This document shows positions 12,142 through 44,200 of a stretch of DNA of 64,000 bases, one piece after another. The stretch spans positions 30,989,646 through 31,053,645 of the forward strand of contig CM040743.1 of NCBI GenBank assembly GCA_022829145.1, in the 5' to 3' direction. This stretch comes from Albula goreensis (Eukaryota > Chordata > Actinopteri > Albuliformes > Albulidae). The first letter of the stretch is position 1. The number at the start of each line of letters is the position of its first letter. The notes beneath the pieces were generated by a model. It did no database searches. It was not told where the DNA came from and saw only the letters and a program-made list of their open reading frames with translations. The translations under genes and the position numbers were made by a program.

Positions 12142-12198
12142 ATGTTTAACTACAATTATGTTACGTCGCAGCAACTTGCTGGTTTCGACAAATACAAG
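12142..12198 (+). CDS. EPT1-like exon 1
   Basis: 19 codons starting [19 protein letters not shown], same length and pattern as the first 19 residues of SELENOI. Donor AAG|GTAAAA, phase 0. Start chosen because the ATG gives the family's exact N-terminal length. Confidence 0.9.
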
Positions 12199-21100: not shown

Positions 21101-24100
21101 GTCCGTTACTCTGTCATGCACTTGAGCACATACTCTCTATTTTTAATGTGCTCAGAGATTTTTTTATTCCAAATGAGATGTGTAAGTATGTCATGAGACC
21201 AAAGGCGGTGAAGCACACAGGACAACAACAATCCTGAGCAAACATGCCACAAAAGCCAGGCATAGCACAATAGAATAGAAAAAAAAAAGAATTGACCACC
21301 TAGAAAACACAGATAAAGAGCAACATGTGAAGTCAATAATAGTCTTTTTAAATGAGGGAGTGTTTTGGTTCAAATGCTCACATGATGAGGCTGGTGTGAA
21401 GCCACATCGTTACAAGATGCTATAATATTGGTATCTCACTATATTGGAGCCAGCTGAAGCCTATGGGTTTGAACTTAGCACACAGTCATTAGAACACATC
21501 TGACTCAGATTACAATTTCACTCACAAACTATTATATTTATGGGCTGGCGTCACAGGACCATATTTAGCGTTTTTTTTTTTCCTGTTTTTGTGTTTTTCT
21601 GATCAGAACGACCAAATGCAGACAAGATGAATAACAAAACATAGTTTATTAGGCAGCTGAAAAATCACAAAAACAGTAATCAAACTCAGACTCCAGGCAG
21701 AGGTCAAAACCAGTTGGGCACAGCGAAGGTACAAAGACATCAGGCAAAAGGAGGTTGAGAGCAGGCAGGCAAAAAGTCATAACCGGGAGGCACAGCAAGC
21801 AGGTACAGGGAGATCCAAAAGGCAAAAAAATGAGGAGACAGGCAAAGTCAGGAACAGGCAGTCAGAACAGACAACAAGGCTCATAGCAAAACAGGTAACA
21901 AGACACTGAGACAAACTCACAATAAAGTAAAGAATGAACAGGGTATAAATGCACAAGACTAACAAGCAAACGAGACACAGGTGAACAACTGGGCAGGTGA
22001 AACAAATAAGCAAAAACAGAACAGGTAACAAGGAAGGTGGGTCAGACACAAAAGACACAAAAAATGAAAACAAAATCACATGTTCAGGGATATTTTTAAC
22101 TATGCAAGTTTGGGCTCCTTCTGCAGAATGGTTTGGTCTTAATATATCTGCCATTCATCTCTGCATGAATTTTCCATTTACACAACATTTGTGAAACGAG
22201 ATCTGAAGCACTGAACCAAGATATGCATGCCCAATCTCTCTAAACACCCTGGTGGCTAAAATTCACATAAAACCACTGTCTTATTGCATTGACACAGATC
22301 ACCCCATTGACATTGACATTTCTCCCTACCAGATAAAACTAGAAAAAAGCCAACCAGTTGCAAAGGTTTGAGATCTACCTTTTTGAGATATACCAAGTAG
22401 TCAAGTCACAATAAATTCTTTAGAATGGATTATTGCTGCCTGTTTTATGAATCAAAATGTGTAAGTGTACATACATTTGAACATATAAATGTGAGACATT
22501 GTGCACATAGGTGTGCATGATAAGTCACATATACATGCAAATGTATGTTTGGTATGTAACTGTTTCTGGCTAAACTATCAACATGAGAAACATTTGTAAG
22601 TGTTTCTGTGTCTAATGTATTTTTAATTTGACAATCTATGTCATGTGTGTAATGTGTAGGTGTGCCAGGGGCAACTGTTACAAAAATATTGGGGAAGAAT
22701 TTTCTCTATTGCTCGACCATATTCTATTCATATTAGACTGGTGTAAATTAGTAATATATTTCCTACCAAAGACAAAGTGCTCTGCTTCATAACTGAACAA
22801 TAATTTACCATAAAAATGCCTTGCAGATATTAAGCTTTTTAAATGTGGACTCAGTAAACTAAATTCATCACACCACTTCAAGAAGAGGAACAGAGCTCTC
22901 AGTGGGCTCAAATGATGGCAGTTGATTGGACTGTATTAAAAAAATGTTTTTTCGAGCTTGCTGCAGTTTTCTTTAAACAAAATGTTTATTCTTTTAAATA
23001 AAATCTTTAAAAATGCTATGCCAGTTATGTTTTGTTTTAGTTCCTGAGCACAGTTGTCAATTTTCTAGGTATTGAAAGCACACAAAAGAAAAAAAGTGTT
23101 TTTTTCTAATCATACAAGAAAGAAATAATCCAGGTGTTGGAAAGTGGTCACAAAACAAACATTCGCAGGAAAAACCAGGCAAAACAGAATGATGGTTTAA
23201 AAGTCAGTCAGGAAGACAGCATTAGGAAGGGGGTACCACTAGCAAAGTCAGCTTTAATAAAGCCAGGTAACCTACTTAGAACAGAACTTGGTTTGATGGG
23301 CTTGCTCTCTTGTTGAATACTTGCATGTGCCAGTATCTTGTCTCCTATAGTGTTGGCTTTGTCTACCAGTAATCAGATTGGCAGCAGGATTTACAGCTGT
23401 GGCTTTTGGCATTTTAAGTGGACATATGACCACTACTAGAGAGGAATGGGGCAGTTGGAGCCTTATAATGTAGTTGACCCAGGGCAGCAATTTAAGTTAA
23501 TGACAGCTTGGGTATTCCCATACAGTAGGGAGCTCAAATATTGAAAATGTGTGACTAATCAAAACTAATAAATGTCTGTGTGTGATTTAATTTGCAGTGT
23601 GTGGTGTGGCTTTCTCTTACAGACTCAATAGATGGCAAACACGCTCGTCGAACCATGTCCAGCAGCCCACTGGGAGAGCTCTTTGACCATGGCCTGGACA
23701 GCTGGGCCACCTCCCTCTTTACTCTTTCCCTCTTCTCTGTGTTTGGCATCAGTGTAGACAGCGGTGTTTCAGCGTACACACTCTACTGTGTCCTGTGTGT
23801 CATCCTGCTCACCTTCATCATCTCCCATTGGGAGAAATATAACACTGGAGTTCTCTTTCTGCCCTGGGGATATGACATAAGCCAGTTGGTGAGTATTCTG
23901 TCACCACAGCCCCTTTCTCTAGTTTGGAATAAAGTTGCTAACTGTTTAGGTTACGAATATGTGTGCAGGATTGAAAGACACTGAAAGATGACTGGTCAAG
24001 AATACATTTAAACCACAAACCTGAGAGAGAATTCAGATATTCTTGGATATAGTCAACCTCACAACTATTTATTTTTATTGTAATCAACTTTGATGTTCAG

Positions 24101-27100
24101 GGTGTATAGGAATATACCAGTAGGAACATACCTCTCAGCTTATTTTATGAAAGCAATCCAGAAGTGTAAAATGCGTTGACACTTTATTTTTCAAAATAAA
24201 CATATTTTCATATGGATCTGTACCAGCACATGTTGTTCAAATGTTCCATCTTAAAATTAGCTGCAGAATCCAACAACTTCAAATAGTCATCCTATTCTGT
24301 TATAAATGTTATTGTAATGTCAAAACATCCATTTCACAGTTATAAATCTCTACAGCTCTGAAAAACACTGCCATCAATGATGTTTTATGAAAATAGAGAA
24401 AATAAGTCTTCTTGTCTGTAGGTAGACTACTGTGAGTCCTGTCAGGTAGCATGACACAGTCTCTTTTGAATCATATTGGACTAAATCAATATCTGGAAAG
24501 TAAAGCAACTGAGTAGTAGATCAGACTGTGAATTGTGAAGCTGTTTGGTCTTTGCTGACCAAGTGGAGGATGAAAATATTGGAGAGAAAAAATCATGGCT
24601 GTTACTATATGGCTATTTACAAAAAAATTGTGTGGGACAATTACAGCCTTGTTTTTGAGTTTTGTTTTTCAATACTCTGTGCACCATAAGAACATTCAAA
24701 ATAGTGTGCTTTCTAAAGTGTATTTTTTTCCTTTTTTTAGACATTAACAGCAGTGTATCTGCTGACCGCGGTAATCGGGGTAGAAGCCTGGCATAAGCCT
24801 TTGCCCTTTGGTTATTTCTTTACAGATATATTAATAGCCATGGTCATAGGTAAGTCTCATATTCATTACTGTCTGTTCCTATGCCCCTATATGTGGGTTC
24901 TTTAGTTTCATTATTCATTTTCCTCTTTGTCTACAATGACTATTTTTCTGCTTGCTCACTTGTGTTTTACAGTTCATTTTAAACTTAAACCAAACATATA
25001 GTAGTTTTGAATATTTCATAAAGGAAGTGTCACATCCTATGGACTATGCATGTTAACCTGTTGGAGTGTAAAGTACACACCATGTCATCTATACATCAGT
25101 CCCATTGTATTTTCATAGCAGTTCTTTACTTGCACATTGTTTGTTATCGCCAAAACAGGAAAACACTATTCTAGGGATTTCTTGAGACATGACAAGTTGA
25201 TTGTTTCCTCATTTTGTACTTAGGTATTTGGTACATTAGAAAGTGAGGTGGGAATGAGCCAGCTGGCTCGCAAGTTTACTGACACAAGGAATACACTTCT
25301 TACTTCATACACCAGATGTTTTGAGTATATACTCAGAACTGAATCAATTACTACTGTCCTCTAGTCCTTACAAAAATTCCATGAAAATATGCACTAATGA
25401 TTTCAAACAATCATTGAGTAGTTACCCCTCCAGATTGTTCTGCCACAGATTTAGTCATGATGTGAGCCACTTCTTCGCAAGGGGAATACTGTGCAACTGG
25501 TGACGTTGGTTCAAATCAAAAACAGCTGGTCTGGCTGTGGTAGCTGTTGGCCTTAGCACATCTGAATCTCATTACAGCACCCCAGTGCATCAGTGTGGCC
25601 TTTGTTTTCTGTAGGAGAGGAATCTAATGTCATGGAAGTCTATGGTGGTCGGGAGGGAGATAATCGCGAGAAGTTTAGGGCTCTGTATTAATTTTTCAAA
25701 CTCATGGCACAACCGTTACAGTATATATATAGCATATTATCTTGAATAACTGCTTTTGTGTTTATTGCAAAACTATGCGGTATCAAATTCTCACAAGTAG
25801 AAACATGGCTCAAATGATTACATTCCAGATTCCTGTGAAATTAAGTTTGCACTGACAAAGATATGACTCAATCCATGTTTTCAAATGAATGATGCGCCGA
25901 GTATTCAGTAACATTGGCCTTTTTTATCATAGCACTCCTAATTTGGTCTGTCGGAGTCGCCTGAAAAGTAAAAAAAAAAAAAAAAAAAGTCTTGCCAAAA
26001 CTGAGCTGCTACATCTTCCAGCCAACTCCTTGGCAATCCAAGACCTTTGTATGAACCATTGAAAACACAGCAGTTCTATATTTTCATGATTATTTTGAAG
26101 TCAATTTACCTTTTACCCAGCAGTGGTAGCCCCAGTGTATTTAAGCTTACTTAAGCTTTTACATTTTATTTTGGTCATTTTTTTATTCTGGCATCAACCA
26201 AAAATTTGCTCTCAGCACAGTTTATACAGTGCAAGGCAAACACAATGATAGTATTAAACCTTTATCTGTTCCAGTGCCTAACTGTAACAGCTCAAAAACT
26301 GGATGTGCCCCATTAGCTTTCAGGAAATGTTAAGCCAATGTCATTGCTGTTGAGCCATATTAGTGAATGCTCAGGCTATATTTAAGCTTAAAAATATGAA
26401 TATCCAGTGTTTTTCAGCTTTTGACCTCTTTAATGTTTAACTTAAGCATAGTTTTTTGTTTTCCTAGTTTTCCAAACCTTTTGCATTGCACACTACTGCC
26501 TTCCAGTTGGTCCTATCCTTCAAAATTCTAATAGTGATTTTTCTGTGAGAGGGGACATGGTTGTAAATCAATTTCTGCATTGTTTCTGTTGGCTAACTTG
26601 TAATCTGGGTCACTGAAAGGGCCTCTATGGCACTGACAGTGACCTAAATCACTGGTTCTGAAGTACCCCAGTATTCATGGTTTTCATTATTACCAGTGTC
26701 ATTTAGTTCAGGCTATAACTTTATGATTAAAACAGATTTTAACCCAGTGCCTGTTTGTCTTACCGATACCATGAGTTAAGCCAGTGAACTTCTGCACTAT
26801 TTTCCACAAATAGTTTTCTGTCAGTGACCCAATATCCATACATTTTGAATTTAGGACTGTCAGCTGTAGATCTGTCAGTTAATCAATACAAAATGCAACC
26901 TCCTAAAAATCAATTATTTTTCACATAAAAAAATAAGCATTAGTTGTCTAACAACTGATCTGACTGACTGAAAAAAATTTGTTTTTTTAGATGTTGACTG
27001 AATATGAACTGACATGAATATCTGTTTCCAATCATCACTGATTAGAAAATCTATTCATTAAAAACAATTATCAGCTATTTACATAGCATTCACTGAAATT

Positions 27101-30100
27101 GGGAGCTGTGGCCATTTACTGGCAGGAATTGGTTTTGTGAACATTACATTCACTGACAGCATGTGTTTACTGACAACAGCAGAATTTACTGACAGAAGAT
27201 GTGTCTCTCTTGCAGGCTGCAGTGCCTTTATGTCCCTTCCACAGACACTGTACAACATCTATCTGTGAGTAGACATTGACTTATTAATCTATATGTACTC
27301 CTTAGCTTGAAAGACAATGACAGAAAAAGAAATAATGCTTCTTCATTTAATAAACGTATAGTACAAACATGTGCAAATAAACAGTCTTTTACAGTCATTA
27401 TTAGTTCATTTTTTATGATACTAATAGCTGTATTTTATATCTGAATGTTGTAAGAATGTTTGCAAGAACTCATTGTAAATGTTAAGTTTAATACTGATGC
27501 ATGAGTTTGCAGATGTACGATCAATAAACTGCTGGTTGAGTGTCCAGCAGGATACTTGGTATAAAATACATAAGTTCAATAATAAATACTTTGCTGACAT
27601 AAAGGAATTTGATCATTGACTTTCATGTGACTGTGTCAGAAATAATATTTTAGACAGAAATAATTTATCTATTTGAGTACGGACATTTGCAGCTTCCCAA
27701 AACACCCCTTCACCCAAATGTTTACATACACGTACATACACAGTCTCAGACATGCACAAATATTAAATATAGTGTTGACTGTGCTTTCAATGATGATGAA
27801 ATCTTCTTGGATTTGTTACAGAATTGCAGAGAGGCAAATAACATATAGGAGTGAAAAAAATTCATTTAGTCATAAAGACAGTACCTAAGGTTTCAGATAC
27901 ACAAGATGGGAGTGGACAAGTTATTACAAAGGGGAGACAGAAAGCAAACTCTTAGTTAATTTTTGGTGTTAATGTAAAAGATAAAAGGTTGCCATATTGA
28001 GTAAAGTCTGTCCGTTGACCCAAAGAAAGATAACCTGATTTTTACATCACTGACGCAGTGCGCATGTGAGTGTGGATGAGTCTCTTTCCATTTTAATACT
28101 AGCAGTCTCCTGGCAAGAAGTGTAACAAAGACAATTTGATTGGAATCCAATTTGGGACAGTCCACATTATGTTTGAACACCAAACATGGCAGTTAAAGGG
28201 TTATGGCCAACAGATCTGTCCAGTGTGGTTGACATGGATTGAAAAATTGTGCAACAAGATATATTTAATTTGGGACAGGAAAAATCATGTGACCCAAAGT
28301 TTGCATCTATCACAAAGGGGGTATATTGTGTGGTACAATTTGGAAAGTTTTTTTTCCTTTGCCAAGAAGGATTTTGACTTGAATAAGGCTGTGTTTTGCA
28401 CTTATGGAATATAAATGATCTAGTATTTGGGCTTTGCCTCTTGTGAATTGTAATGGGATACAAACATGGTCAAGATTACTGCAATGTCAGAATTTTTTTG
28501 CGTGCAAGTAAAGAACAGCTCATTCTACATGTGCCAACTATGAATAATTTATTGATTGGAAATATTACTTATATTAAAGTTGCCCTGTTATGAAAAGGAC
28601 TACCCTTGCTGTGTCGCTGAAGAACAGAATTTAGCCAGTATTGAAAATGGCAATAAGTGGAAGCCCAGTAGGTTATTTATTTTTCACATTTTGGAACACT
28701 GTCTCCCCTTATTGTGACTAGGCCAGCATGATATTAGGAAAATCTGCAATGTGTGATAACATTGTTCAGTATTGCAATGATGATATGACTTGCGAGTGCG
28801 TATTAGCTATACAGTTCCTATGTCTTCCTACTTTAATAGGTACACTGCTAACATAGACCCAAAACATTGAATAGCCTATGCCCACTGAATAAAGAAATGA
28901 AATAACTTTTTTGAATAGGCTTTTATTGAACAAATTGCTCATGAATACCCAACCAAGTAAACAAAACATTAATTTAATTAAGACTGTATAACTATAAGAA
29001 ATAAGTTTTATTTCCTCTACTCCCTTAAAATATTTTCTTCTAAACTCAACAAAATTTCTTTAAACTAAAACAAGTGCGAACTTGCAATAGCTACGACCAC
29101 GTACACTGATGTATCTACGTGTACATGGATTCACACACACACACAACCTCACAAACACTTGACCTCCGTGGCAGATGTCGTGATGCAAAATACTGTGTAT
29201 TTGTGTGAATGTGCAATTCTTTCTACACTGTACATTTTGCCAAAGAATTTGAGGAATTATTGAAGATTATTTTTTTTAAGATTTATAGTTTGTCATCTGA
29301 CTGGCCAAATGGTGTGAATGCATGGCCCATGTATCCAGGGCTCCATCTGATCAGTCAAATGTTGGCATGCTGAGTGTGAATGCATGGCATGTGTAAATAA
29401 AATGATTTTTCATATTCATCGCGTTTATTGTCCTCGTAAGCAGCAGCAATGATAACCCACTGCAACAAACAGTAGACAAGAAACAAAATTATTTCAGCTA
29501 CCATATTAAATTAACATGTATAACACAGACTTGCCACTGCTCAGCAAACACCTATTGCTGTTGTATTTAAAAATGTTTAATTGATACATTGCAGTGTTCA
29601 AATGAACATATTTGACAAGGAAATTTTGTATCAAAATTGTAATAGACTAATATTTGTGTTTTAACATATCTGAGACTCATCCTGTCAAATATAAAATAGC
29701 ACATGCTTGGATTATTTATTTAGCAAAGTGGTCCAACATATCCATGTGTGCAAAAATATGTGAACCAGTATAATCAGTAACTGGTGACATCTTCTTTAGC
29801 AGCATTGACTTCAACTAAACATTAACTGTACCTGTTTAAAGGTGTCTTACATCAATAAAGCAATTGTCCAGAGATTGGAAACAATTGGGAATTGCTTTAT
29901 CTGTTAGCATTTTCACTCGCTTATATTTTGCACATTTTGCTTGTCTTTTTATTTTCATATGCTTTTATGTTGTGTTGTCTGATGCTGAATGTGCTCCTCC
30001 TGGCCAGGTCTGTCTTCTAAAATTCTTTTAATCTTAATAGGACAAACCTAGTACAATAAGGTTGAATAAAATGAATCAATCTGTAAGAATCCCATTTAAC

Positions 30101-32693
30101 CACACCAAACAGCAGACGTATCTGAGTGGTGAAGGAAGAATTCATTAAATTAATGGGATTCATTAATGTTACCTTGTTTTTGCTTAATTATCTAAGTCCA
30201 GATAATATTTTTGACCCTTTCCTCTCTGCAAACAGTAACACATATTGAGAATGCAAATGATGGACTGTATCCTCATTCTGTTCCTTCCTTGTTCTTGTGG
30301 CTCAATACAGATCATTGTCTATTTTGTTAGCTGGGGACATGCCTCTGGCTTGTGTTGCCTCCGAGGATACAATGTGTATCTTGTGATAATACTAATGCTA
30401 CGCAAATGCAGCTGACCTAGGTTCTGTATGTATGTTGGATGATGTAATGGTTATAGTCAAGGAGGAACGCCAGGTAAAATGAATGCAATTGATTGTGTGT
30501 TCAGTGATGATGACCTTCGATGGCAAAATGTAAATATAGTTTGCTATTCCTGAGTGCAGGAGGTCATATTGACAAGTCTCCTTGAACTATTACACTTTCC
30601 CCTTTATATACCCAAAGATCAAAGAAAGTCCACAAATCATCAAAGGAAAACACAATCACAACAAAATAGCAGTAACAACAATGACCCTTGTTTGTGATAT
30701 CTCTGGGTTCCACACTACGTTAACCATTTTTGACCCCACAAACTTTTGAAAGGTGCTCCAAGGATTTTATTCAGTGCCACCATTACATACCATCAATGAC
30801 ACCACCTTTTTCCTCATGCCATATAAAATTTAGAGCAACAACAAACATGGCTACACTGTATATTGAACAGCTAGGGAGATGTAATGCTGTTTTAATTCAA
30901 GGAAAGACAACATAGTTCTGGAGTCAGAGTCCACAGAGGCAGTCGAATGATTGTATCAGCACTGTTGGGGCAATAGCATTGTTTCTTAATCATACCTAAC
31001 TGACTCCCTGCTAGCACTGTGAGCACAGTGTGTTCTCCTTTGGGGTCAAATAAGGGGCGCACTTCTGTAAACTACCCTAACCATCTATTTTAGACCATTC
31101 TTGTTGACACAATTGCCTCTTTTCTGTGGTATCAGTGGTCTTCAGTGCATGAGCTGTTTGCTCCAAGTCCTACCACAACTTTTTAATATATTTAAGGTTC
31201 CAAACAATCAAAATCGTAAATTTATGCATTTTTATCTTGGTGTTGTCTCTTTTTTGTCATGGACAGAGTCCTGGGATTTTGGACATTAATTTTGTTCTTC
31301 ATTGCAAATTTCAATGTTTCTGATATAAAATGGCCTTAAGATGGTAAAGCATTTGTTAGTGACTTGTGTTTGCATAATGATGCTCAGAAATATTTTTTCT
31401 TCCAATGTGTCTGGCTGCCTGTTTACGTCTTCATTGAGAAACGTAACAGAACATGCTTTAGTGTTCCACATATATGAAGTGTTTGTCATTTCCATATCAT
31501 TTTATACATACCCGCTGGGAGATCATGCTAGCTGATGGGACTTTAGGCAGACTTTAAAAGCGTGTTTCTTACAGAGAGGTGTCTGTCTCCAGGGCTCACA
31601 AGCGAGGGTCACTCCTCAGGAACTCGCTGTATGAAGGCCTGCTGCCCCTCCTCTCTCCCTGTCTGCTGTTCACCCTCCTCACCACATGGGCTGTGATGTC
31701 CCCCAGCAACGTCCTCACCCAAAACCCCAGATCATTTCTCTGGATGACAGGAGTGGCTTTCTCCAATGTCACAGTATAAAGCATTTCTTCCCTTTCTCTG
31801 CCCTCTGCCTCTTCTCATTTCTTTTTCTTCATCATCGTTCAGAACAACTGTTTAACCATTTATCATTGTGGTTACTGTATAAACAGTCCAGGCAGAGGGT
31901 ATTTAATGACTTCATATTATATTGTTATACTGTACTGTACTTTAGCAATGTAAGGAAACTTATTTAATGATTAGAAGAACAAAGTAGGGCCCAGTTCCTC
32001 ATTCTCATTTTGCAATGTATCAAAATATTAAAATATAGTAAAATGATAGCTGTGAGGAACAAAACAAAAAATCAAGGAATGTTGGAGAGGTAGCTGATCC
32101 ATGAAAAGCAACTGGATTTGGCCCCGCTCACTGTATTTCCGACACTTCCTGTTTTTCTTTCTCTCATAAAGTGCAGACTCATCATTTGCCAGATGACCAA
32201 CACAAGGACGGAGGCTTTCCACTGGCTGCTGCTTCCGTTAGCTGGAATTACTAGTGGAGTAGTATTTGGTATTCCGGCGCAAATTGAGTTCCTCTGTCTC
32301 ATGGCCTACAGTACCTTGGTAACAGTCGCCCATATTCATTATGGAGTCTGTGTGGTGAGTAACTGCATAATTTTGCACACATTACTACTGCTTTTCATGA
32401 ATGGGCGTATGGGAATAGTCATGTGACTTCTTGACTGGCTAAAGGCTCTTGATATAATCTCTCATAATAATTAAAGCATGCAGAAGGAGTACTGATAAGG
32501 GAAATATGTGCTACTATATAGATGTGCTTTTGGCAGATTTTTAAACTTTAATTTCTTAAATGGGCCTTCCTCTGAATAATTGTAGGTATTATGCTTTATT
32601 TTACATTTATATTTTCTTTACTTCCAGGGGAGACAGCTGAGTAAACACTTGAACATTTACATATTCTCCTTGGGTAAACGACATCAGGAATAA
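12142..32693 (+). CDS. EPT1/SELENOI-type CDP-alcohol phosphotransferase lacking selenocysteine
   Basis: Predicted ethanolaminephosphotransferase: transfers phosphoethanolamine from CDP-ethanolamine to diacylglycerol (Kennedy pathway) in Golgi/ER membranes. Ten exons: 12142-12198, 13313-13381, 19039-19147, 20378-20452, 23623-23888, 24741-24849, 27216-27264, 31593-31773, 32172-32354 and 32628-32693, giving 387 residues (human SELENOI 397). The family signature DG-x2-AR-x8-G-x3-D-x3-D is complete in exon 5 (DGKHARR ... GELFDHGLD). Hydrophobic segments match the usual multi-pass topology. The N-terminus ([20 protein letters not shown]) and HIHYGV near the end follow EPT1, not CEPT1/CHPT1. The reading frame stops with TAA exactly where SELENOI has its UGA selenocysteine, and the last ten-residue tail is absent. 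Divergence from SELENOI (for example DSIDG for DGVDG) suggests a paralogue rather than the direct orthologue. Substrate specificity is inferred from the family. Confidence 0.9.
12454..12600 (+). other. Unexplained GC-rich open frame in EPT1-like intron 1
   Basis: A 48-codon frame ([18 protein letters not shown]...) within a locally GC- and CpG-richer patch, preceded by a good acceptor (TTCTCTACCAG at 12434) and containing a donor-like CTCTCTG|GTTAAC at 12549/12550. Used as a cassette exon it would bring an early stop (AAG CAG GGA TGA), so it is not an in-frame exon of the host gene. No family recognised. Confidence 0.3.
13313..13381 (+). CDS. EPT1-like exon 2
   Basis: 23 codons, residues 20-42. 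Acceptor TTTCATTTCAG, donor AAG|GTGGGT. Encodes [14 protein letters not shown], highly conserved at the membrane entry of EPT1. Confidence 0.92.
14530..15230 (+). mobile_element. LINE reverse-transcriptase remnant
   Basis: Frame-shifted remains of a non-LTR reverse transcriptase. [16 protein letters not shown] at about 15050-15100 matches the 'GPLLFSLYMLPLG' block, and FHCCPDDT stands where FHCYADDT should be, so the catalytic YADD is broken. Several stops. In intron 2 of the EPT1-like gene. Confidence 0.6.
15480..15975 (-). mobile_element. L2-like LINE fragment
   Basis: Minus strand encodes, in two frames, [10 protein letters not shown]...[14 protein letters not shown] and then [18 protein letters not shown], the C-terminal part of L2/Maui-type reverse transcriptases (typically [18 protein letters not shown] and VPR...AFS..AP.LWN). 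Stops and a frameshift make it inactive. It sits next to, and opposite to, the LINE remnant at 14530-15230. Confidence 0.65.
18669..18866 (+). mobile_element. tRNA-derived SINE, complete, with target duplication
   Basis: Starts GGCGTGCCCCGGTGGCTCAG, has an RNA polymerase III A box (TGGCTCAGCTGGAAGAGC), a B box (GGTTTGAATCC) and a TGCATGTCCTCTCCTCTCTC body, and ends in AATAAAGTGGAAAAATCCC plus A-runs. It is flanked by a perfect 11-bp duplication AACTATACATT at 18658-18668 and 18867-18877. Recent enough for the duplication to be intact. In intron 2 of the EPT1-like gene. Confidence 0.88.
19039..19147 (+). CDS. EPT1-like exon 3
   Basis: 109 bases, residues 43-79, phase 0 in, phase 1 out. Acceptor CTGTTGCAG, donor CAG|GTAATT. 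Encodes the first transmembrane helix after [12 protein letters not shown]. Confidence 0.92.
19351..19949. mobile_element. MITE with 'TAGGGCTGGGC' inverted ends
   Basis: Left end TAGGGCTGGGCATTATACCA and right end TATATTGCCCAGTCCTA are inverted copies (about 17 of 20 match). A 600-bp non-coding element of a type common in fish, in intron 3 of the EPT1-like gene, 200 bases after exon 3. Confidence 0.65.
20378..20452 (+). CDS. EPT1-like exon 4
   Basis: 75 bases, phase 1 to phase 1. Encodes [20 protein letters not shown], the loop and second transmembrane helix. Donor TTGG|GTAAGA. Confidence 0.92.
21595..22085. repeat. Purine-rich interspersed repeat of uncertain class
   Basis: A long stretch of AGG/ACAGGCA-type words (CAGGCAAAAGGAGG, AACAGGTAACAAGAC, CACAGGTGAACAACTGGG) typical of a dispersed fish repeat. 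The 125-residue minus-strand open frame here is composed of low-complexity Leu/Cys/Val/Phe and is not a gene. Confidence 0.5.
23623..23888 (+). CDS. EPT1-like exon 5, catalytic exon
   Basis: 266 bases, residues 104-192. Carries the whole CDP-alcohol phosphotransferase motif: Asp-Gly, Ala-Arg, Gly and the two downstream aspartates that bind metal and the CDP group. Also [20 protein letters not shown], nearly invariant in EPT1. The residues just before the motif read DSIDG instead of DGVDG, but the Gly altered there is outside the signature. Acceptor TCTTACAG, donor TTG|GTGAGT. Confidence 0.95.
24741..24849 (+). CDS. EPT1-like exon 6
   Basis: 109 bases, residues 193-229. Acceptor CTTTTTTTAG, donor ATAG|GTAAGT. 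Encodes [15 protein letters not shown], matching TAVVGVEAW of SELENOI. Confidence 0.92.
24850..27215. other. EPT1-like intron 6
   Basis: AT-rich; an A-run at 25970-25988; possible tRNA-like B-box motif (GGTTCAAATC) near 25509. No coding exon seen. Confidence 0.45.
27216..27264 (+). CDS. EPT1-like exon 7
   Basis: A 49-base exon, phase 1 in, phase 2 out. Encodes [16 protein letters not shown]. Acceptor TCTCTTGCAG, donor CT|GTGAGT. Aligns without gaps to GCALCVTLPMSLLNFF. Confidence 0.9.
27265..31574. other. EPT1-like intron 7
   Basis: The 4.3-kb intron holds a DNA-transposon remnant at 29735 and a CA repeat. The AATAAA-rich DNA and open frames (for example 28136-28414) show no family similarity. 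Confidence 0.45.
29735..29885. mobile_element. DNA-transposon remnant
   Basis: GGTGACATCTTCTTTAGCAGCATTGACTTC is split over the element and resembles the block at 48386-48420 (GGTGGCACATCC then TTTAGCAGCAAAGACTTC). Two short related pieces of the same fish DNA-transposon family. Confidence 0.35.
31593..31773 (+). CDS. EPT1-like exon 8 (with a second in-frame acceptor at 31575)
   Basis: 181 bases, residues 245-305. Two acceptors lie 18 bases apart, both in frame: ...TTACAG before 31575 and ...GTCTCCAG before 31593. The downstream one is chosen because it gives exactly the human segment length (19 residues from the Asn of NIY to the Gly of LYEG, against 19); the upstream one would insert six residues. 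Encodes [20 protein letters not shown]. The donor ACA|GTATAA is weak. Confidence 0.85.
32172..32354 (+). CDS. EPT1-like exon 9
   Basis: 61 codons, residues 306-366, phase 0 both ends. Acceptor CTCATAAAG, donor GTG|GTGAGT. Contains [12 protein letters not shown], the last transmembrane helices, and [10 protein letters not shown] (SELENOI LAHIHYGVRV). Confidence 0.93.
32628..32693 (+). CDS. EPT1-like exon 10, ends in TAA at the selenocysteine position
   Basis: 21 codons plus stop. Acceptor TACTTCCAG. Encodes [21 protein letters not shown] then TAA; the SELENOI counterpart reads on through a UGA (selenocysteine) and ten more residues. Counting from the shared Tyr and Phe-Ser-Leu, the TAA falls at the selenocysteine codon with no gaps. 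Confidence 0.9.
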   Translation, partial: GRQLSKHLNIYIFSLGKRHQE

Positions 32694-35690
32694 CATCGAC
32701 TTAGAGGAACAATGAAGACTCACTTCCACTATACTGCTATAAACTGGAACAATTCAGAATGACTGTATTTCATAGACCAAAGGGATATGGGCTAGGACTG
32801 GTTTACATATTGTGTCTGAGGAAGGTTTTGCAGCTTCTCAGGTAAGCAATTAAGAACACAGAATACTGGAACTTGTAAAGGGGCATTTACAATGCTTAGG
32901 TCTGAAATAACACTCTGGGAGAATATTTATATGTATGAGATGGTATGATATGATATTTGGGTCTAGAACAGTAAGATCTCAAAATATAAATGTCACTAAT
33001 GTCATTTATGTGAAGTGCAACACGGAAAATATTTTTTGACTACAGGACTTAAAAATGGTCTGTGACTATTTAAAGAATGACTGTAGCTACATTTTCATTA
33101 ACTTGGATTTATGTGGCTCCACAATGCATACTAATGTGGGCATGAAATTTTATAAACTGATTGACTTTCCTTAGTCAGCAGTTTGAGAAAATGCAAAATA
33201 ACTGGCCTAAATGTGCAGGTAAGACAAATGGCTGCAATGTAAATTTACACAATTTACCTGAATTGGCTGCATTAAATACGCAGCAACTCCAATGTGAAGA
33301 TAAATTAAGTAAAGAGCATGACTGAGTGCAACATATGGAGCTTGTAGAAATAATGAAGAAATTTGATTACTGGTCTTGGTTGGTGTTTTCCACACAGAAA
33401 AACTGTTAGCTGACAAAATCAACAAAATAAATTCTCTGCAACATTCTAATGGAAATGTAGCTACTGAAAAATTGTTGAAAATACAAAAAATGGACACAAA
33501 AATGGTAGCAATTTTTCTTGTGTATCTGAACTGCTAATTGGTTATGACATCCCACTCAGGAAAAAAGTAGTGCTTACTTTGTCTGCTACCCTTTTCTATG
33601 TCAAGGACCACTGTAGCATTTACAAATGTGTACATTTGAGGAGCTCCAATCTATTGACAGAGAGTAATGAGCTGCTTTTTTATCCCCAGAATATGGTCAG
33701 AAATCACTGTCCAGAAATAGTCACTGGCTGTTAAATTTCAGTTTTAAAACATTTTTGTAAGTCTTCCATGTCTGAGAAGAGATTTGATAAAATTGTAAGC
33801 AATAGGAGCATGGGAACAAAGACAGAGATGAAGCGTGTCCTGTTTTTTTTTTTTTTTACAATTATGAAATATTGATAATTTTTAAGGATAATTTTAAACC
33901 AGAAAGTCAGTTTTAAGTAGTGACTTGAGGTTTTTTATTGACAGTTTTCTTACTTTAACCGTAGGCAGGAATATCTCCAGCAGCGTTCCACTGCCAGCGT
34001 TTCATAAATCCTTCTGCGGAAGAAGGTACGAGTAATAAAAACTAAAGCGAGACTAACATTTCAAAGAAAATTAGGTAGATTTCTTGTGGATGTGCTCGTA
34101 CAGTTTCAGAGCATGATTTACTACTGCTTAGTGATGACACTGTTTCTAAAAACAGCACATTCTTTATCGTATGCCTGTTCAGTGAGATTTTAATAGCTTT
34201 TTGAAACATAGGCACTGCAATGACTGCAGCCGAGTTTGTGGGCTGCAGAGCAAAAAGGTGCAGTGGCTGACAGAATGCACTTTGGAGGTGGTACAAGTTT
34301 GTCTGTGATATCCCAAACTGACGTATGATGTTGCAGTTATAAGTGACGTTTGGATGCATTGCTTTTTTCCTCCCTGAAACTCGAAGGGAAAAAAATTGTG
34401 GTAAAAAGTGTTTGGAAAAAATGGCACTGGATGAACACTTAAGTGCCATTTCCTTCACAGATGTTTCCTCCATAAGAGTCAAACTTCTGTTTTCCTTGTG
34501 GGATCGTTCTAAATTTATCTTTTCATAATCTTAAACTTAACAGCACAGGAGTATCCAGAAGGGAGGGCACCTTTGTGTCAGCATTCCGGAAGGGCTGACA
34601 GAATACTCTGGCACAGTGGAAGGGGGAATCCCTCAGTGAGGTCAAAAAATAATAATAATACAGTAAATAACCAATATACCTCTGGAACACAAAACAAGAG
34701 TCAGTCATTTTGAAGAAGAATGGTTTTCGTTTACATATTGTAACAGGAATATTGATTTGCTGTTACTTGCTGTGAGAAATTCTATATATCCCATGTCTTA
34801 ATACAAGGGCAAGCTGAGCCCTACTCATTGCTGTATTAAGTGTGGACTGTGATTAGCTAGCTATAGTAAGGAGTTCACAGCAGTTGTAAACAATTGGCTT
34901 TGTCCAGTTGGGGGTAAAGTGAACTTGTGTCAGCCCAGACATGTGGTCTTTAGGTACCACTACAGGTACCTATGTGTCATCACTGCGCAATTTACCTCTC
35001 CTCATTGATGTTGTCTCTCCTGTTTCACTGTTTTAACTTGTAGAGGCAGAACATAATCACTGGTTTGCAGATGATTGTATTTGAGGAGTTCAGTTTGTAA
35101 CTGGCACAGAAGATGCCATAGAAATGCATACTTGAGACAGATACCACGGTTCAGTTTGCAATTCCAAACTAGAAGCAGAAACTGCATGAAGGAAATATAA
35201 ACCGGATATCCCAATTAGCAAGACCAGATTACTTCAGCAATGCCAAATATAACTCAATAACTTGGACTAAATGAACTGTTGCCTCAATTTCAGTTTCTTA
35301 ACCACAAAACTAAACTGGAACATACAAAAGCACATGGCATTGCCTGTTAAATTTTATAGTGATTACAATATTTATGAATGTAATTATTTCCTTCTAAGTG
35401 TTAAGATACTTAAAATGTTGTTTTGGAAATGTGGTATAATTAATATGTACATCAATTTGTAAATATAGTTTTGTTTTTAGTACAGTGGAAAGGATATTTA
35501 ATTATATAATTCTAATTTAATAATGTGAATTATGGATTTCCTTCATGGTGTTTTGTCTGTGAATGTCTGCACGTTGTGTGAAGATCTCATTTCCTGCTAA
35601 TATTTCACCGAGACAGAATAAACTGTGTTTGTGGTTTATATTTCATGTTTTGAATTTATACCCAATAAAAAGAAATAGATATTGGATTTT
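32694..35690 (+). other. 3' untranslated region of the EPT1-like gene (extent uncertain)
   Basis: About 3 kb without a recognisable coding exon. AATAAA hexamers occur at 33426, 34034, 35617 and 35664; the last two, 47 bases apart and followed by T/GT-rich DNA, are the best candidates for the main poly(A) site. A perfect donor-like CAG|GTAAGC at 32841/32842 and an acceptor-donor pair around 33965-34025 could allow splicing inside the 3' UTR. A T-run lies at about 33843-33858. Confidence 0.5.
35664..35669 (+). terminator. Likely poly(A) signal of the EPT1-like gene
   Basis: AATAAA followed within 30 bases by TATTGGATTTTATTG and then GT-rich sequence. A second AATAAA at 35617-35622 may be used as well. 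Confidence 0.45.
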
Positions 35691-36930
35691 ATTGCAGAAA
35701 ATGTTTGCTTGCTCATGGTGATGTTTTATTTTTAAATTGAAGAATTTTTACTTCTGTGTTAAGATGATTAAAGCAACTGAAACTGGATGGAAACTGGGCC
35801 TGATTATGAAAGGGCAGATTTTCACATTTCCACACAACTGCACCTTGGAGTCATTTAATCCACCTACACCACAGCTGCTTGCAAAAGAAACAATGTTGTA
35901 TTAAAATTACCTAGTTGCTTGCTAGATAAGTGGAATTCAGAATAAAATTAATTATTTGATACATTTTTTCAACCAGAATAAATAATTCTGCAGCCTCTGG
36001 TTGGCTCAAAGAGCTAGACATTCACCTGGAGAGACGAACTGCCTTTAACTCTGCTTTAAATCAAATTGCATGAATTACCGGCAAAATTAATGCAACACTG
36101 AGCGAAGATCACTAAACAAGTGTGCACTTGGTTAAAAAAAAAAAAAATTAAAAATCAAGTCACCAATTGACTATTACATAGGGTATGTTTGAATCAAATT
36201 TTTAAAATTGTATTTGGCATCAATTATGATGAAATACCCTTTCCTGATCTGTTCATATCTTAGATTATAGTGGAGAATTAGTAATATGTATAATTATATT
36301 TGTTCAGTCTTCAAAGCATAAAATGTTGGACTCCATCTGCTTTTTTTTAGTATATGTGACACAATGTGATTTTACAGAACTGTTCACACAGAAGAGAGGT
36401 CTAGTATTTGAATATTTTATAAAGTTGACAAGTTTTCACTTTTATATGCACATTTTCACTAAGCACGTCACAAAAAAAGTGGGAACTGACAATATAAATG
36501 TACAAATTTATGGTAATAGAAACATAGGTAGTGCATCTTAAAACAGCTCTTAGATGTGATGCTTTACAATCTACGGAGGATAACATTTCATACAGGAATC
36601 TCCTGTCAATGTTACTTTCAGCATGTATGCCACAGCAACGAGTCCACCACAGAAGAAATGTATGGCAACCAAAAAAGAAATAAACATCAAGCCAAAAATG
36701 GACTTAATTTTTCATGGGATTACCCTGTGGTCCTAAAACCTGTAGTTTATTGCCACATCCAGGCAAAACACCTACATGAGACTATATGGATTACTGTCAT
36801 GAACACAAAAATGTACCAATCTTGTGCAACTGAGGAACCACGAGGCAAAGAGAAGTGACACAGAACAGTGGTGAGACAATGAGGCGAGTCAGAACAGGCA
36901 ACGTGAAAGAGCACTATAATATGATATACA
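35691..36930. other. Intergenic gap between the convergent EPT1-like and MAPRE2 genes
   Basis: AT-rich, with an A-run at about 36134-36147. A weak hairpin at 35806-35851 was examined as a selenocysteine-insertion element and rejected. No exon. Confidence 0.45.
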
Positions 36931-36939
36931 ATATTTGGA

Positions 36940-38192
36940 GTCATTATTTTTATTCTTCAATCAAATGTGTAGGTTTTTATTATAGCAAATCCACCCAAAC
37001 CTCCTCAGCTTTGAAATGGCAGGTTAAACGTACAAAACACAGCTCACTTAACATAGTTTTTATTAAATATGTAAAAAGATAAAAGCAGGTCAAGTTATTC
37101 ACATAATAATCGAAGACAAAAAAATTACCAATGCTAACATGCAACGAATTGTGGGGAACGCATGATGAGTGAGACAATAAGACATGTCTAAGAAATCCCC
37201 AATATTTTTTTGTTTTTGCTATTTATAACTATAAACAGTACATATGTTTACATTCCTTTTCATTTTACACATAATATATGACAAAAGCATTACGGTGAGC
37301 AACTGAGTTTAGTTATAGTAAATGCATAATCAAGGAAAGTAGTGATACAATGTACTGGAATACTGTATTGTGTCAAATTCCCAGTGAATGGACCGGTAAC
37401 AACTTCCATTAAACCTGTGGTTTAAAAATTAAATATAAGCAATATATCTTACACATGGATTCACTTATGTTTCAATTCCTTGGAATTGGGATGGGTCTTA
37501 CTTACAAACTAACTTGAATTCCTGATTCATAAACACTGCAGCATTTCTCCCTTCATGTGGAAATGTAACCAAATCAAATACACTTCTTCATTCACAACAT
37601 TCTGTTAAGCACAATTATACTTTATAACAAGATCTCAGTATAACAGTTCAGAATTAAGTATAGCACAAGTTAAATGTTTGTGATGGAAGTAGAGCGGGAG
37701 GTAAAACAAAGTAATAATACTAGCTTTTTCAGGGCTATGCTTATTGCATTTTATCACAATTAATAGAACTGATATGTCAAATCCAACACTGAAATAGCAA
37801 ACTTTAAAGCACACAGTAATGGATTGGAAAGAAGCAGGTAGTGTTTCATCTAATAAAAACTAACCGACCTAAATGTAACATCTTCTCATACCTGAGCTCT
37901 GAATGAATCTTCTGCACACCGGAGTGCTTCGCTCTTACTGTCCTGGGATCAGTCAGCAGTGGCCAGAGCAGGATACTTTATGTGTTAATGAAAATGAGAT
38001 GCAGTACTTCAACTGTCACGAAAGCACACAAAATGCTCAACAGTGGATTCTTAGAAGGGGCTGCGTATGTGCTCAATCCTCAGGACAAGGAAAACAAATC
38101 ATGACAAAATAAAAAGCTGAAAAACAGTTCCCATGAAATCAAAGGTTGTGATGGCGGTGCATGGCGTTCGTGCTCCTCCAGGGGCATGGTGT
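36940..38192 (-). other. mapre2: MAPRE2 3' untranslated region
   Basis: Follows the TGA at 38193. AATAAA hexamers on the minus strand lie at 37064-37059, 36981-36976 and 36954-36949, so the transcript probably ends near 36930-37040. No coding exon seen. Confidence 0.5.
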
Positions 38193-38273
38193 TCAGTACT
38201 CCTCCTGTGGCTGGGCTTCCTCTTCTGGGGCTGGCTGCTCAGGGTCATCCCCTGGGTCCCCTGCTCCCTCCTG
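38193..38273 (-). CDS. mapre2: MAPRE2 exon 7, acidic tail and stop
   Basis: 26 codons and TGA. The acidic, Pro/Gln-rich tail ends AQPQEEY. The acceptor is a tandem CAGCAG, so one Gln may be included or skipped. Confidence 0.93.
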   Translation of the reverse strand, partial: QEGAGDPGDDPEQPAPEEEAQPQEEY

Positions 38274-41200
38274 CTGAGACAACCGTAACAATCAGGAACG
38301 GTTACCACCAACTGGAGTCTCTATGACTCAAATGTATGAGTACCATAAAAAGGTTTTTTGTAAGAAATCAGTCATATTCATGTTAATAGGTGCTTTCAAA
38401 ATTCATAGTTTAATAAAAACTACATGTAACATTCAGAGCTGGTATCCTTGCTGATAATCAAACTAAAAAAAGGGCTGAATGAATTTGTATTGAACTCTTC
38501 CCCCCCCCCCACCATAGTGAGCTAACATGCACACTGATAAAAGTAGATGCCGACAACGTAACATTGCCAAGAGTGGGGATTTTCAATCTGAATTTCTTTA
38601 ACTTGTCAGCTATTCATGATAACATAAGACAAAAAGCAAATGCAAACAGTGATACAAGATCACAAATGCCAATATAACAAATAGAGGCTATTTTGAATCC
38701 TTCCAGGATTCAACTAGATCATACACAACACCTTATTACTTAAAATTTTATTTCAATAAGTCAATAGATTTTAACCTTCTACAGGGAAAACGACCTCAGA
38801 AAAGAAGCCTGAACAGGTAACCACTCTGCTTGACAAGTGGTATCAAAAATAATTGTAACATACTAATTTCTGTAAACTTTCATCTGGGAACCAGGACATA
38901 TTTTTAAAGCTGCGGCTTCATTTGGAATTACATGTTCACAACTGATACTCAAAACTACTGACAGTTAATAACCAATTAGGAACATTGCTTAAAATATTAA
39001 CAATGAATTCTTTCTTTCTTATTAACCAAATTTCAAGTCAATATCTTTGGATTGGCATGTGTGGCAGATACATTTTCTCCTTTTGTGTTCAAACAAAGGT
39101 CAGACCAACAGGAATAGAAATAGCACACTGAAAAGTGCTAATGTTTTGTATGTGAACCATTAGCTTTCAGCTATGAACTGAAAAATATAGCACCTTCCAT
39201 AATGGCAGTAAAGACCTGAATATTGCAAGATACCCTGTGAGGAAGAAACAGAGATGTAAAGAGGAAAAAAAAAAAAAAAAAAGGCCTCACCTGCTCTTCT
39301 GTGGAGTACAAGACTTCCATTAGCTGCTGCACAAACTGGGCACTGTCTTGTCCCTGTTCTTGGCACAGCAACTCGATCTCTCTCAGCTTTCCGAAGTAGA
39401 AGTCCCTTTCCTTTTCCACACCTTCTAATGCAAGTTTTAACGTGTTCACCTGCCAAATTCGCACCAAACAGGAACAGTCAGCCTGAAGTATTAGTCAGTC
39501 ATAAACGCATCAAATGGCAACAGTGAGATTAATGTGTCTGTCTGCTACAAACACACCAAGCAGAAACAGCACAATTAATGCACTCCCATGAGCAGATCTA
39601 TTTGATATTGGTATTCCATATACCATTCACATTAATCAGTGACACACGAATGACTTGAATGGTTTCAAAATTGACAGTTATCAGACTGAAAACATTTTCC
39701 TCAATAAACCATGGTAACAGTATTTCATGTTATTTGACCTACGATTGGTTGCCAATTAGTCAGTCAAAATTGATCTAACCAGGAATGTTTGTGCATTCAG
39801 CAAGAAAGGTCACTGTTGCTGCTCCTCAATCACCTTGCTTTCTGTGAGAAATTGTTTGTGTAGTTGTGCTTCTGTGGCTAGGTCGCAAATTCCCAGCCAC
39901 TATTCCCTGCTGCTACAGACAGAGCAAGACAGTGGATGAGCCGACTGCCTCCTCCTATTTTAATGTTTTGCTTTTCTAGCTGCTGCAGCGTTCATTAGCT
40001 AGGTGACAAGTTTGCTATTAGGTATGTCAATTAACTAAGCTGTTCCATTATTACTTCAGAGGCTTGATGCCACTGGTTGGTGCACAGAACACTGTCCCAT
40101 GGCTGGGAGTTGGAATCCCAACCATGTAATTACTGTCTATGGGTGTAGGCTCTCACAGGGACACCCATACTTGTTTCAGCCTCACCAGGGAGAAACTGTG
40201 GGTAGTTCAGATAAACTCCACAGTTTCATTGCTCACTTGTGACCTCCCTTAGTTGGGTTCCCACTGAGAAAACCTATAGAAAATTATGAGGGCTCCACCA
40301 ACAACTGTGACTGCAAATGACAGCATTGGAAAACTACATTAAGAAACAACCACAACTGAGGCTGGGTGGTATTCACTATTAACCCTGCCTCATTAACAAG
40401 GACCACAGTGATTGTCTACAAATAGGTTTTTTCCCCCTTTATCTGGACAGATTTCCCCAGCCAACCAGTGCAGGCATCAAGATGGTATGTAATTTACAGA
40501 GAGGAATCTTGAGCAGTACCAGATGCTAAGCAAATGAAAGGATGGCTGTCAATGAGATCAATGCACTATGGTCCCATCCAATGTTGGGCACAGACTCAGA
40601 ATATATGCATCTGTATTATTAAGGCAGCACCTATTTTTTGGATCATATTTACAGTGATATTACTTGTTCATTCATCAATGACTACATAAACAATACACCA
40701 GTGCTCTGCCTGCTCTTAAAGCTCTTATTGCATGGACATAAACTAGCCATTGAACTGTTATCACAGAAACAACACTGGATAATTTCACTCAGAAAGCTGC
40801 GATCAGAGGCAATGCTTGTGTGTTAACTTCTTAGATTATATACATACTCTGTGACGGGATGCTTTACCTGGTCATTGAGCTGTGTGACCTGTGCCTCCAG
40901 TTCCTTTTCTCCTTTGGCGGGGGCTGATGGTGTGGGGATCTTTTTAGCTGATGAGGGTCTTGATGACGGTGTTGAGGGTTTAGCGGCTGAACTCGACTTC
41001 GTTGCGCCTGCACATACACAGATTTACAATATTAGAAGACGGCACAGAAAAGCACAGGAGGCTGACAAAATAAGGGAAACAGTATCTTAACATTTATCAA
41101 CCAATGAGGAACTGAGGCACCCTTTGCCTTCAGAACAGTTTAAATCCGTCTTGGAATGATGCTGTACAAGTTTTTGACTGCTACACTTTTAGTTTCAAAT

Positions 41201-44200
41201 TGGGACATCCCTCAAGAGATTCTTTACAAAATGGAGGAGGGTAAATGCACTACACATTCTATGTTCCACTACCTTCCATTAATATTCAATGATGTTTGAT
41301 GTTTAGGGAGGACATGGAAGGTATTTCATCTGGACATCAACTCTTGAATCTTGAAGAAGTTTGGATAAGGGTCACTGTCTTCCACAGCCAATATTTATGG
41401 GGGACTCTTGGCGCCTGATAACAGTTAGACATTCATTTGGTGGTATTACAGGATATGGCACCAGCCTTATGGCATTATTTTCATGCCAAATTTCTGTGTG
41501 TGAAGGGGTATTTTATATGCAAAAAGAGATTTTTTGTACATGCAGCTTAATTTAAAGTGAAATGCATCATCGCACACATAATTATTAATTTGGAGCAAAG
41601 AAAATTTGAAAGCTCCTTCCTGACTGGATCTTGTACAACAGTTTAGAGGACAAAACCTGCAGCATGTAGATTACTCTTGTTTCTAAGGTGGGTTCCCACT
41701 TTTAGATGGTCATCACACATATTTTAAACAGTCTAGTGAATATCCATCATGACCATACCATCTAAAGCACAATCGATATCGACACCTGCAGTCTAAACTA
41801 GTAGATCTACAATTATGGCATTTGTCTCGTGACCGCTGTGCTCCTAAATACATGAAATTCAAGATCTGCTGTATCAGTGATGTTGGTCTGGCAAGGAATA
41901 AACTCCAGAACACACACATGGATCTGCATACACACACACCGAATTTGCACTCTGCGTTAACGTCCACATTCTCTTGCCAGTCCCACTGTCATTCCCCAAA
42001 TGATGCGGACAAATAAATAAAGCAATTTCGGAGGGAGACTCATTGTTCTGCACAGGAAATGATCCTGCTCTCACAAATAGTTTTTGAGTGATGTCAGCAG
42101 GCCATAAGCCACTTACTGGTCTCTGGAGCCATTTACTTCCCTGAAGCCTGTATTCCGCATGCAAGTGCTGAACTGAAGACTGTTTTGTAGTCTTCTGGGA
42201 GTGCTTTATACATCTTGTTACACCACTTTTTTCACAAGGCAGATTCCTTCCCAACTGAACAGTCTTCAGTTTCACCAATGCATCCAACCCGCTAAAGGAA
42301 CATTACCAATGCCCACAACCAAGAATTAATGGAATATAATGAGAGCAAGGACAATGTATTTAATTCCCTTTTTAATTTAGTTTCAGGGCATACACAGAGC
42401 GTGGGCAAAACATATCCAATAACAAGTAATGAATAAGGCTATAAAGGGAACTGTGCTTGCTCCACACAGTGCATCTGGTCTTTGAAATGGCTTCATATTT
42501 GTTGCCTGATATACAACCATGTGGAGCACTCATTAGACCAAATGAGTCCCACGAGATGGTTCTCCACACCACTTTAGATCCACCACCATATTCAACAGTT
42601 AACAACAGACAAGAGTGAAAGATGACTCATCAGACCACACAACCTTCCCATTTCTCAGGGGTCCAGGATCTGTGCACCTTACACCAGGATAAGTATCTAC
42701 ATTAGCCTTGGATACAAGCAGTTTCTGAAGGGCAGCCCTGCCATAAACACCAGCTTTTTGTTGTTTTTGCTGTGATTGAGCCACAGAGGTCTTGATTCAA
42801 CCTTGGTGAGCTTCAACTTGCATCCACTGGTCCTCTTTGCTGACACAGTTTATGCCTGGCATAAACTGTCATCATTATTGACACTACTCCTCTTGCCAGA
42901 GTAAATAGTTTTTGTCACTTGCGGTTAAATAAGGATTTTTTGCACTAGGAAACTTAAAAACAACCTGAGATTATTGGGCAATACATTATAAATGACTTAT
43001 CATTGGCAAACTGCTTATCAGTTAAAAAACATCTATGGAATAATTGAACAAAAAGCTTTTAGTTGGCAGTGTTTTCCTAATGGTCCATAGTTCAGGGACT
43101 GTGCTTACCTGCTGTGGGGGAACTAGCCGCATGGTGAGACTTCTTCGGCAGATTGAAGATCTGTTCACCAGGGTCTGGGGGAGGAATGGCATCTTGGCCC
43201 TGCCTGGCCTGAACTGGATTGTACTCCTTGCCATCATAGTTGGCATCGAAGAACTTCTTGAACCACTGGATGAAATCTAGATTATCTTGAAAGCGGCCTT
43301 TGACCAGCTTCTCCACAGGAATGATCTGACGAAAAAAAAATATATATAAAAATAACACAGGGTCAAGTTTTTAGGCACGTTTTAAATTTGGCCAGCAGGG
43401 GGATTCTGGAGTGCCTATGTGCTGCTGTATGTCTGAGGATTAGCCCGCTCACCTTGTCCACGTTCATCCTCTTGAAGGAAGCCTGCAGCAGCTTGAAGTT
43501 GTGAATATACTCATGCTCCAGTTTGGCCTGAAACTTCACCTTCTTCAGACTGATGCAGCCTGGAAACAGCATGTCCATGAACTGACAATATGCTGCTCCT
43601 GTGAAGAGAACCACATACAGCTTAACCAATCAGTCTCCTTGACCTGGGATAACACGGCAGAGTGCAGAAATACATAAGCTTGTGTTGACCCGGGGTCAGC
43701 CCAGGGCAGGGTTAACACAAACAATAATGTATCCACACGCTGCTGCCAATCCATGACTAAGCAACACCCTTTGCTTACATTGCCAGTTCAGAGCAAGTTT
43801 GGCATAGCTATATGATGTCATTGTCATCATATAGCTATGATAAATCTAAGCACTGCAAATGCAGCCCCATATCAGCCAGTACTAATCCAAGGCAACAATT
43901 GCTACATTACGCTGCAGATTCACTAGGTGGGAAAGTTTTGGTTGGCATGCAAATCCACACCTTTGGTGAGACCAGGAGTTGATTGAGAAACTTCTATCTT
44001 CCTACAGAGCCCAGCTGGTGGATTATGGAGCAAAAACTCACTGTTCTGAGACTAATGCATGAATAATAATATACACATAAACTACAAACATACACAAAAA
44101 AATGTATAATATCCATTCTATGAAATTCATAAATTAAATGAGGTTGCTGGGTGGTTGTTCCCCTAAATGACAACTGAGTTTCAGAACTAATATCCCAACC

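Follow-up and report, generated by a model that had tools for sequence, protein, structure and literature searches.

The 64,000-nt stretch of the Albula goreensis genome analysed here, which we refer to as the window (C3:30989646-31053645; the genome comprises 932 Mb in 208 contigs), contains a complete gene of the EPT1/SELENOI type. SELENOI is an ethanolamine phosphotransferase (EPT) in which a UGA codon near the C-terminus is read as selenocysteine (Sec). In this study, we found that the window gene ends in an ordinary stop at precisely that codon. We estimate, with a probability of roughly 0.73, that this gene, here called EPT1L, is a Sec-free ohnologue of SELENOI that arose in the early vertebrate genome duplications (2R) and has been kept under constraint beside SELENOI.

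Contig C7 carries the SELENOI gene of the same genome on its minus strand, with coding exons at 23325738-23341387 and the ending KKPSTD-TGA-LEEEKIGLHAAEV-stop. A match to the Rfam family SECIS_1, a selenocysteine insertion sequence (SECIS), stands 1.08 kb past the UGA (30.7 bits, E 0.0073, under the Rfam gathering score of 35), and a core-motif scan ranks the same site first in its 3' untranslated region (UTR), at -11.0 kcal/mol, the best of 40 shuffles reaching -10.7. In this gene, the acceptor of the last exon is 63 nt from the Sec TGA (22156 to 22219 when the C7 stretch is reverse-complemented). In the window gene, which ends GKRHQE-TAA, the matching acceptor is likewise 63 nt from the TAA (32628 to 32691; stop at 32691-32693, + strand). 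The two sites therefore correspond without insertions or deletions, and the use of the acceptor distance sidesteps the alignment of the diverged last residues. Thus, the window gene has TAA at the codon where a selenoprotein of this family would carry an in-frame UGA near its C-terminus.

We found neither a SECIS nor a SELENOI-like tail downstream of this stop. Two poly(A) signals (AATAAA at 35617 and 35664), which alone define its end, suggest a probable 3' UTR of about 3 kb (32694-35690, +), and further AATAAA motifs at 33426 and 34034 would shorten it. Rfam searches returned no SECIS among 8 matches at E<=10 in 32000-40000 nor among 6 matches at E<=10 in 32600-36200, and the best core-motif site of the UTR scored -7.8 kcal/mol against a median of -8.0 for 40 shuffles. 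Read-through beyond the TAA gives HRLRGTMKTHFHYTAINWNNSE-stop, which is dissimilar to LEEEKIGL. Post-stop DNA does share GACTTAGAGGA with the C7 tail (GAC-TAGAGGA), and this was not counted as a remnant: the tail remnant score was matched by 74 of 1000 dinucleotide shuffles in the short, most favourable test and by 311 of 1000 in a 150-nt test. A SECIS remnant sought by DNA alignment was also rejected, as 153 of 200 shuffles scored equally high. A tail pattern used to look for another last exon that ends like SELENOI, on the + strands of the window and the C7 stretch, matched the C7 tail only. GT sites within exon 10, at 32641 and 32674, leave room for other tails.

The gene structure links the window copy to SELENOI. 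We rebuilt the gene as 10 exons (12142-32693, +) that encode 387 codons plus the stop in a frame that is open throughout. The exons lie at 12142-12198 (57 nt, start codon at 12142), 13313-13381 (69 nt), 19039-19147 (109 nt), 20378-20452 (75 nt), 23623-23888, 24741-24849 (109 nt), 27216-27264 (49 nt), 31593-31773 (181 nt), 32172-32354 and 32628-32693 (coding part), all on the + strand. The nine introns are all GT-AG and have phases identical to those of the C7 gene, and the lengths of exons 1 to 9 are equal in both genes except for a difference of +3 nt in exon 5 and of -3 nt in exon 9. Retention of intron 8 (31774-32171) would place a stop one codon past exon 8. The CDP-alcohol phosphotransferase motif (D-x2-DG-x2-AR-x8-G-x3-D-x3-D), located in exon 5, is complete, and the protein belongs to this superfamily by its Pfam PF01066 score (35.5 bits, cut-off 22). 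Identity, phylogeny and shared exon structure place it in the EPT1/SELENOI group, not with CEPT1/CHPT1. These results agree with an earlier note on this DNA, made from the window alone, which had described an EPT1-family enzyme with the whole motif intact: its 12-residue last-exon peptide before the TAA was exact, and its claim that the stop replaces Sec without a gap is borne out by the equal acceptor distances. A second copy of the kind that it proposed to look for, with UGA and a SECIS match, exists on C7, and the SECIS it proposed to look for 3' of the window stop was found neither by the Rfam search nor clearly by the core-motif scan. Its description of the enzyme as active-looking also fits the sequence.

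The window gene seems to be a working one, because a ten-exon frame of 387 codons is still open after such divergence. Between the window copy and its C7 paralogue, 253, 286 and 151 of 386 sites are identical at codon positions 1, 2 and 3, respectively, and the Nei-Gojobori (NG86) estimates are dN 0.39 and dS 2.5, the latter saturated and therefore indicative only. We regard the gene as probably constrained, functional and Sec-free. A decaying pseudogene, or an assembly or base error at the TAA of a real selenoprotein gene, is the least probable of the explanations that we weighed. The weak splice signals of intron 8 would fit it, but the open frame over 10 exons, the 55% identity to SELENOI, the intact catalytic motif and the codon-position identities all argue against decay. 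As for an error, no SECIS was found and no SELENOI-like tail appears even when the TAA is read through, and therefore a mere exchange between TGA and TAA would not restore the tail.

The absence of Sec is accompanied by a second difference. Mariotti et al. (2012; PMC3316567) describe cysteines 133, 229 and 310 as conserved in SelI and absent from other homologues, and consider Cys133, a residue near the catalytic aspartates that is predicted to face the same side of the membrane as Sec, the most promising partner for it. The window protein has Thr at position 133 (exon 5, GACAGCTGGGCCACC at 23697) and retains the equivalents of Cys229 (exon 7) and Cys310 (exon 9). The C7 SELENOI has all three cysteines, and human SELENOI has Cys at 133. 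Hence, the window copy carries two of the three SelI-specific cysteines, and the codon at 133 is ACC in the window gene and TGT in C7 SELENOI. Thr133 is also found in five of six outgroup sequences, namely human CHPT1, human CEPT1, the structure chain 8urt_A and the loci on C12 and C17; 8ul9_A, near-identical to 8urt_A, agrees. The joint lack of Sec and of its proposed partner in one copy is suggestive rather than statistical evidence, as seen in one paralogue of one species. Human column 317 parallels 133, with Thr in the window copy and Cys in both SELENOI sequences (C7 and human). The window copy also has private cysteines at human-numbered columns 158, 161, 346 and 364, which are absent from both SELENOI.

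Several lines of evidence suggest an early split between the two genes. The window protein shares 212 of 386 residues (54.9%) with C7 SELENOI and 211 of 386 with human SELENOI, and C7 SELENOI shares 287 of 395 with the human protein. Identity to CEPT1/CHPT1 is much lower, at 27.7-29.3% (98/354 to 105/358). In a maximum-likelihood tree of six sequences with a very distant outgroup, C7 and human SELENOI group together and the window copy falls outside (Shimodaira-Hasegawa-like approximate likelihood ratio test, SH-aLRT, 96.8; ultrafast bootstrap, UFBoot, 99), a placing that we regard as moderately supported. The two alternative trees have p 0.045 each in the approximately unbiased (AU) test. The branch to the window copy measures 0.345, and C7 SELENOI lies 0.305 + 0.185 away from that branch's node. 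Relatives on viral contigs were considered as a possible outgroup, and none of 107 pattern matches was confirmed.

The genomic neighbourhood is in agreement with the tree. The tail-to-tail neighbour of the window gene is a MAPRE2-like gene (39291-47577, minus strand; exon matches at 39291-39452, 40862-41014, 43101-43328, 43447-43608 and 47437-47577), identical at 178 of 198 residues to human MAPRE2 and at 146 of 198 to MAPRE3. The opposite affinity is seen in the MAPRE gene located about 47 kb from C7 SELENOI (177 of 196 to MAPRE3, 146 of 196 to MAPRE2). A PDB search cannot separate the two, as EB3 is the top hit for both genes and no listed name says member 2. MAPRE-type matches occur in the genome on C3, C7, C9, C12 and C14. 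Moreover, with human DTNA as query we found two strong dystrobrevin loci, one at C3:31.10 Mb, some 43 kb past the window, the other at C7:23.76 Mb, roughly 0.42 Mb away from SELENOI; scattered single matches on C2, C5 and C9 and at other places on C7 (E 3.6e-6 or weaker) are probably relatives. Three gene families (EPT1/SELENOI, MAPRE and dystrobrevin) are thus common to the same two segments. In human, 2p23 carries MAPRE3, DTNB and SELENOI, and 18q12 carries MAPRE2 and DTNA. A shared neighbourhood of this kind fits what is expected of the early vertebrate genome duplications. Along the same lines, Mariotti et al. (PMC3316567) consider that SelI may have originated in a genome duplication at the vertebrate root.

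We considered whether the window gene could instead stem from a duplication of SELENOI in the teleost-specific (3R) event or later, with loss of Sec and rapid evolution thereafter. This is improbable. The gene has been seen in one fish genome, human is not known to have a second EPT1-type gene, and the Kishino-Hasegawa (KH) and Shimodaira-Hasegawa (SH) tests (p 0.050) do not reject such a placing. However, the support for C7 plus human SELENOI without the window copy and the AU result stand against it. Furthermore, the window branch is shorter than the path to C7 SELENOI, and the adjacent gene resembles MAPRE2 where a second MAPRE3 would be expected. The window copy is therefore probably not a recent duplicate.

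The earlier note had left open whether Sec was lost by a UGA-to-UAA change or never gained. The evidence leans to the second, and loss still has a place. On balance, we favour a history in which the window copy never gained Sec, because Thr133 is the usual outgroup state, the split from SELENOI is probably early and no remnants of tail or SECIS were recognised. The alternative is that Sec predates the duplication and was lost in the window copy by a UGA to UAA transition, after which SECIS and tail decayed and Cys133 drifted to Thr. This course of events is a tentative second choice, well above a late duplication or an artefact. It needs one base change at the stop, the sites correspond exactly, and two of the SelI-specific cysteines, Cys229 and Cys310, are retained. 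In addition, PMC3316567, which also used the elephant shark, reports SelI from every vertebrate that it examined, so that Sec is old. Loss would nevertheless require position 133 to revert to the Thr usual in the outgroup, and it finds no significant remnant in the shuffle tests described above. Two points go beyond the earlier note: the window copy is probably an ancient ohnologue, and the candidate Sec partner Cys133 is missing as well.

Several other observations weigh against an ancient Sec-free gene that never gained Sec. The direction of change was judged from CEPT1/CHPT1-type states, with one fish species compared, and Xenopus CHPT1, the remaining one of the six outgroup sequences, has Ile at 133. 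The dating tree is small, with six sequences, and its outgroup is very distant; the AU test rejects the alternative trees by a narrow margin, and the KH and SH tests do not reject them. Gene order differs between the two segments: the EPT1-type and MAPRE genes are tail-to-tail in the window and on the same strand on C7, where dystrobrevin is about 0.42 Mb off. Intron 8 combines a weak donor (ACA/gtataa, at the end of exon 8) with an AAG-type acceptor at exon 9, so that efficient splicing is not assured. The core-motif SECIS scan is poorly specific, as one shuffle of the window UTR reached -14.9 kcal/mol and beats the true C7 site at -11.0. Finally, remnants of a tail or SECIS would be unrecognisable after more than 400 million years, so their absence is weak evidence against loss.

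Altogether, the following course of events may be proposed. An early vertebrate genome duplication would have produced EPT1L and SELENOI. Translation of EPT1L would end with a plain UAA where the ancestral terminator stood. In the sister gene, this position would have become a UGA, read as Sec once the 3' UTR had acquired a SECIS, and Cys133 would have appeared near the catalytic aspartates. EPT1L would then be an ordinary, selenium-independent membrane EPT; we infer its substrate (from the family), its expression and its location. Human SELENOI made in bacteria and truncated before Sec retained EPT activity, according to two papers (PMC8540796; PMC3316567). Since this bacterial product was active without Sec and tail, a protein ending at this codon can in principle be catalytic. 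The second of these papers doubts that the activity in bacteria reflects intact SelI function.

It is about an even question whether the two genes represent a preserved before and after of Sec gain, SELENOI having acquired, on a single branch, the UGA-encoded Sec, the SECIS and Cys133 and its sister having kept the plain stop and Thr133. If true, a putative Cys133-Sec387 redox pair would be a vertebrate invention added to a lipid enzyme that already worked. The function of Sec in SELENOI is described as unknown in PMC10298544, and a review (PMC8540796) states that existing data speak neither for nor against a role of Sec in the choice of CDP-ethanolamine over CDP-choline. The presence, within one animal, of a paralogue that has the catalytic motif and is devoid of Sec, tail and Cys133 fits the proposal of Mariotti et al. 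(PMC3316567), who also report that no Cys forms of the SelI tail were found. The window paralogue may thus serve as a natural control for the tail, for substrate choice and for the extent to which ethanolamine-lipid synthesis depends on selenium.

A Sec-free paralogue of a selenoprotein is a known kind of gene; unusual here is that it ends at the Sec codon, without the proposed partner cysteine. GPX5, GPX7 and GPX8, Cys paralogues named in PMC12822975, are similarly Sec-free genes kept beside a Sec-containing one. They differ in having Cys at the Sec position, whereas the window copy stops there. With SELENOI/EPT1, the window copy shares the 10 exons, their phases, the catalytic motif, Cys229, Cys310 and 55% identity. 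It differs in the UAA in place of the Sec UGA, in the missing tail and SECIS, in Thr for Cys133, and in its MAPRE2-like neighbour on C3 where SELENOI has a MAPRE3-like one on C7. With CEPT1/CHPT1 it has in common the PF01066 superfamily, the motif, the lack of Sec and, in most sequences examined, Thr133, and differs by the low identity given above. A full-text literature search found no description of a Sec-free SELENOI paralogue, with incomplete coverage, so that prior publication or an automatic annotation is possible. A paper on mormyrid fish (PMC12188244) mentions selenoi merely as an expressed gene.

When the genome was searched at the protein level, matches of EPT1 type appeared solely at the window and at the C7 locus. 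The next matches, on C12, C14, C17 and C25, are probably CEPT1/CHPT1 genes (exons were read for C12 and C17). Counts from this search are lower bounds, and there are thus at least four probable CEPT1/CHPT1 loci, as compared with at least one SELENOI and at least one EPT1-like locus. CEPT1/CHPT1 duplicates seem to have been retained where EPT1-type duplicates were not.

Two further features were observed in the window. Broken frames at about 42375-42796 (minus strand) and 50543-50909 resemble a Tc1-type transposase by eye, and none of three pieces submitted to Pfam matched a family. On the other side of EPT1L, exon sequence of a divergent neighbour that encodes a DUF4502 protein, presumably SPIDR, lies at 7501-8967 (minus strand). 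The piece 7501-7797 scores 15.7 against PF14950, below the cut-off of 27, and 8659-8967 reaches 37.6 bits with the same model. The nearest DUF4502 exon found is about 3.2 kb from the EPT1-like start codon, on the opposite strand.

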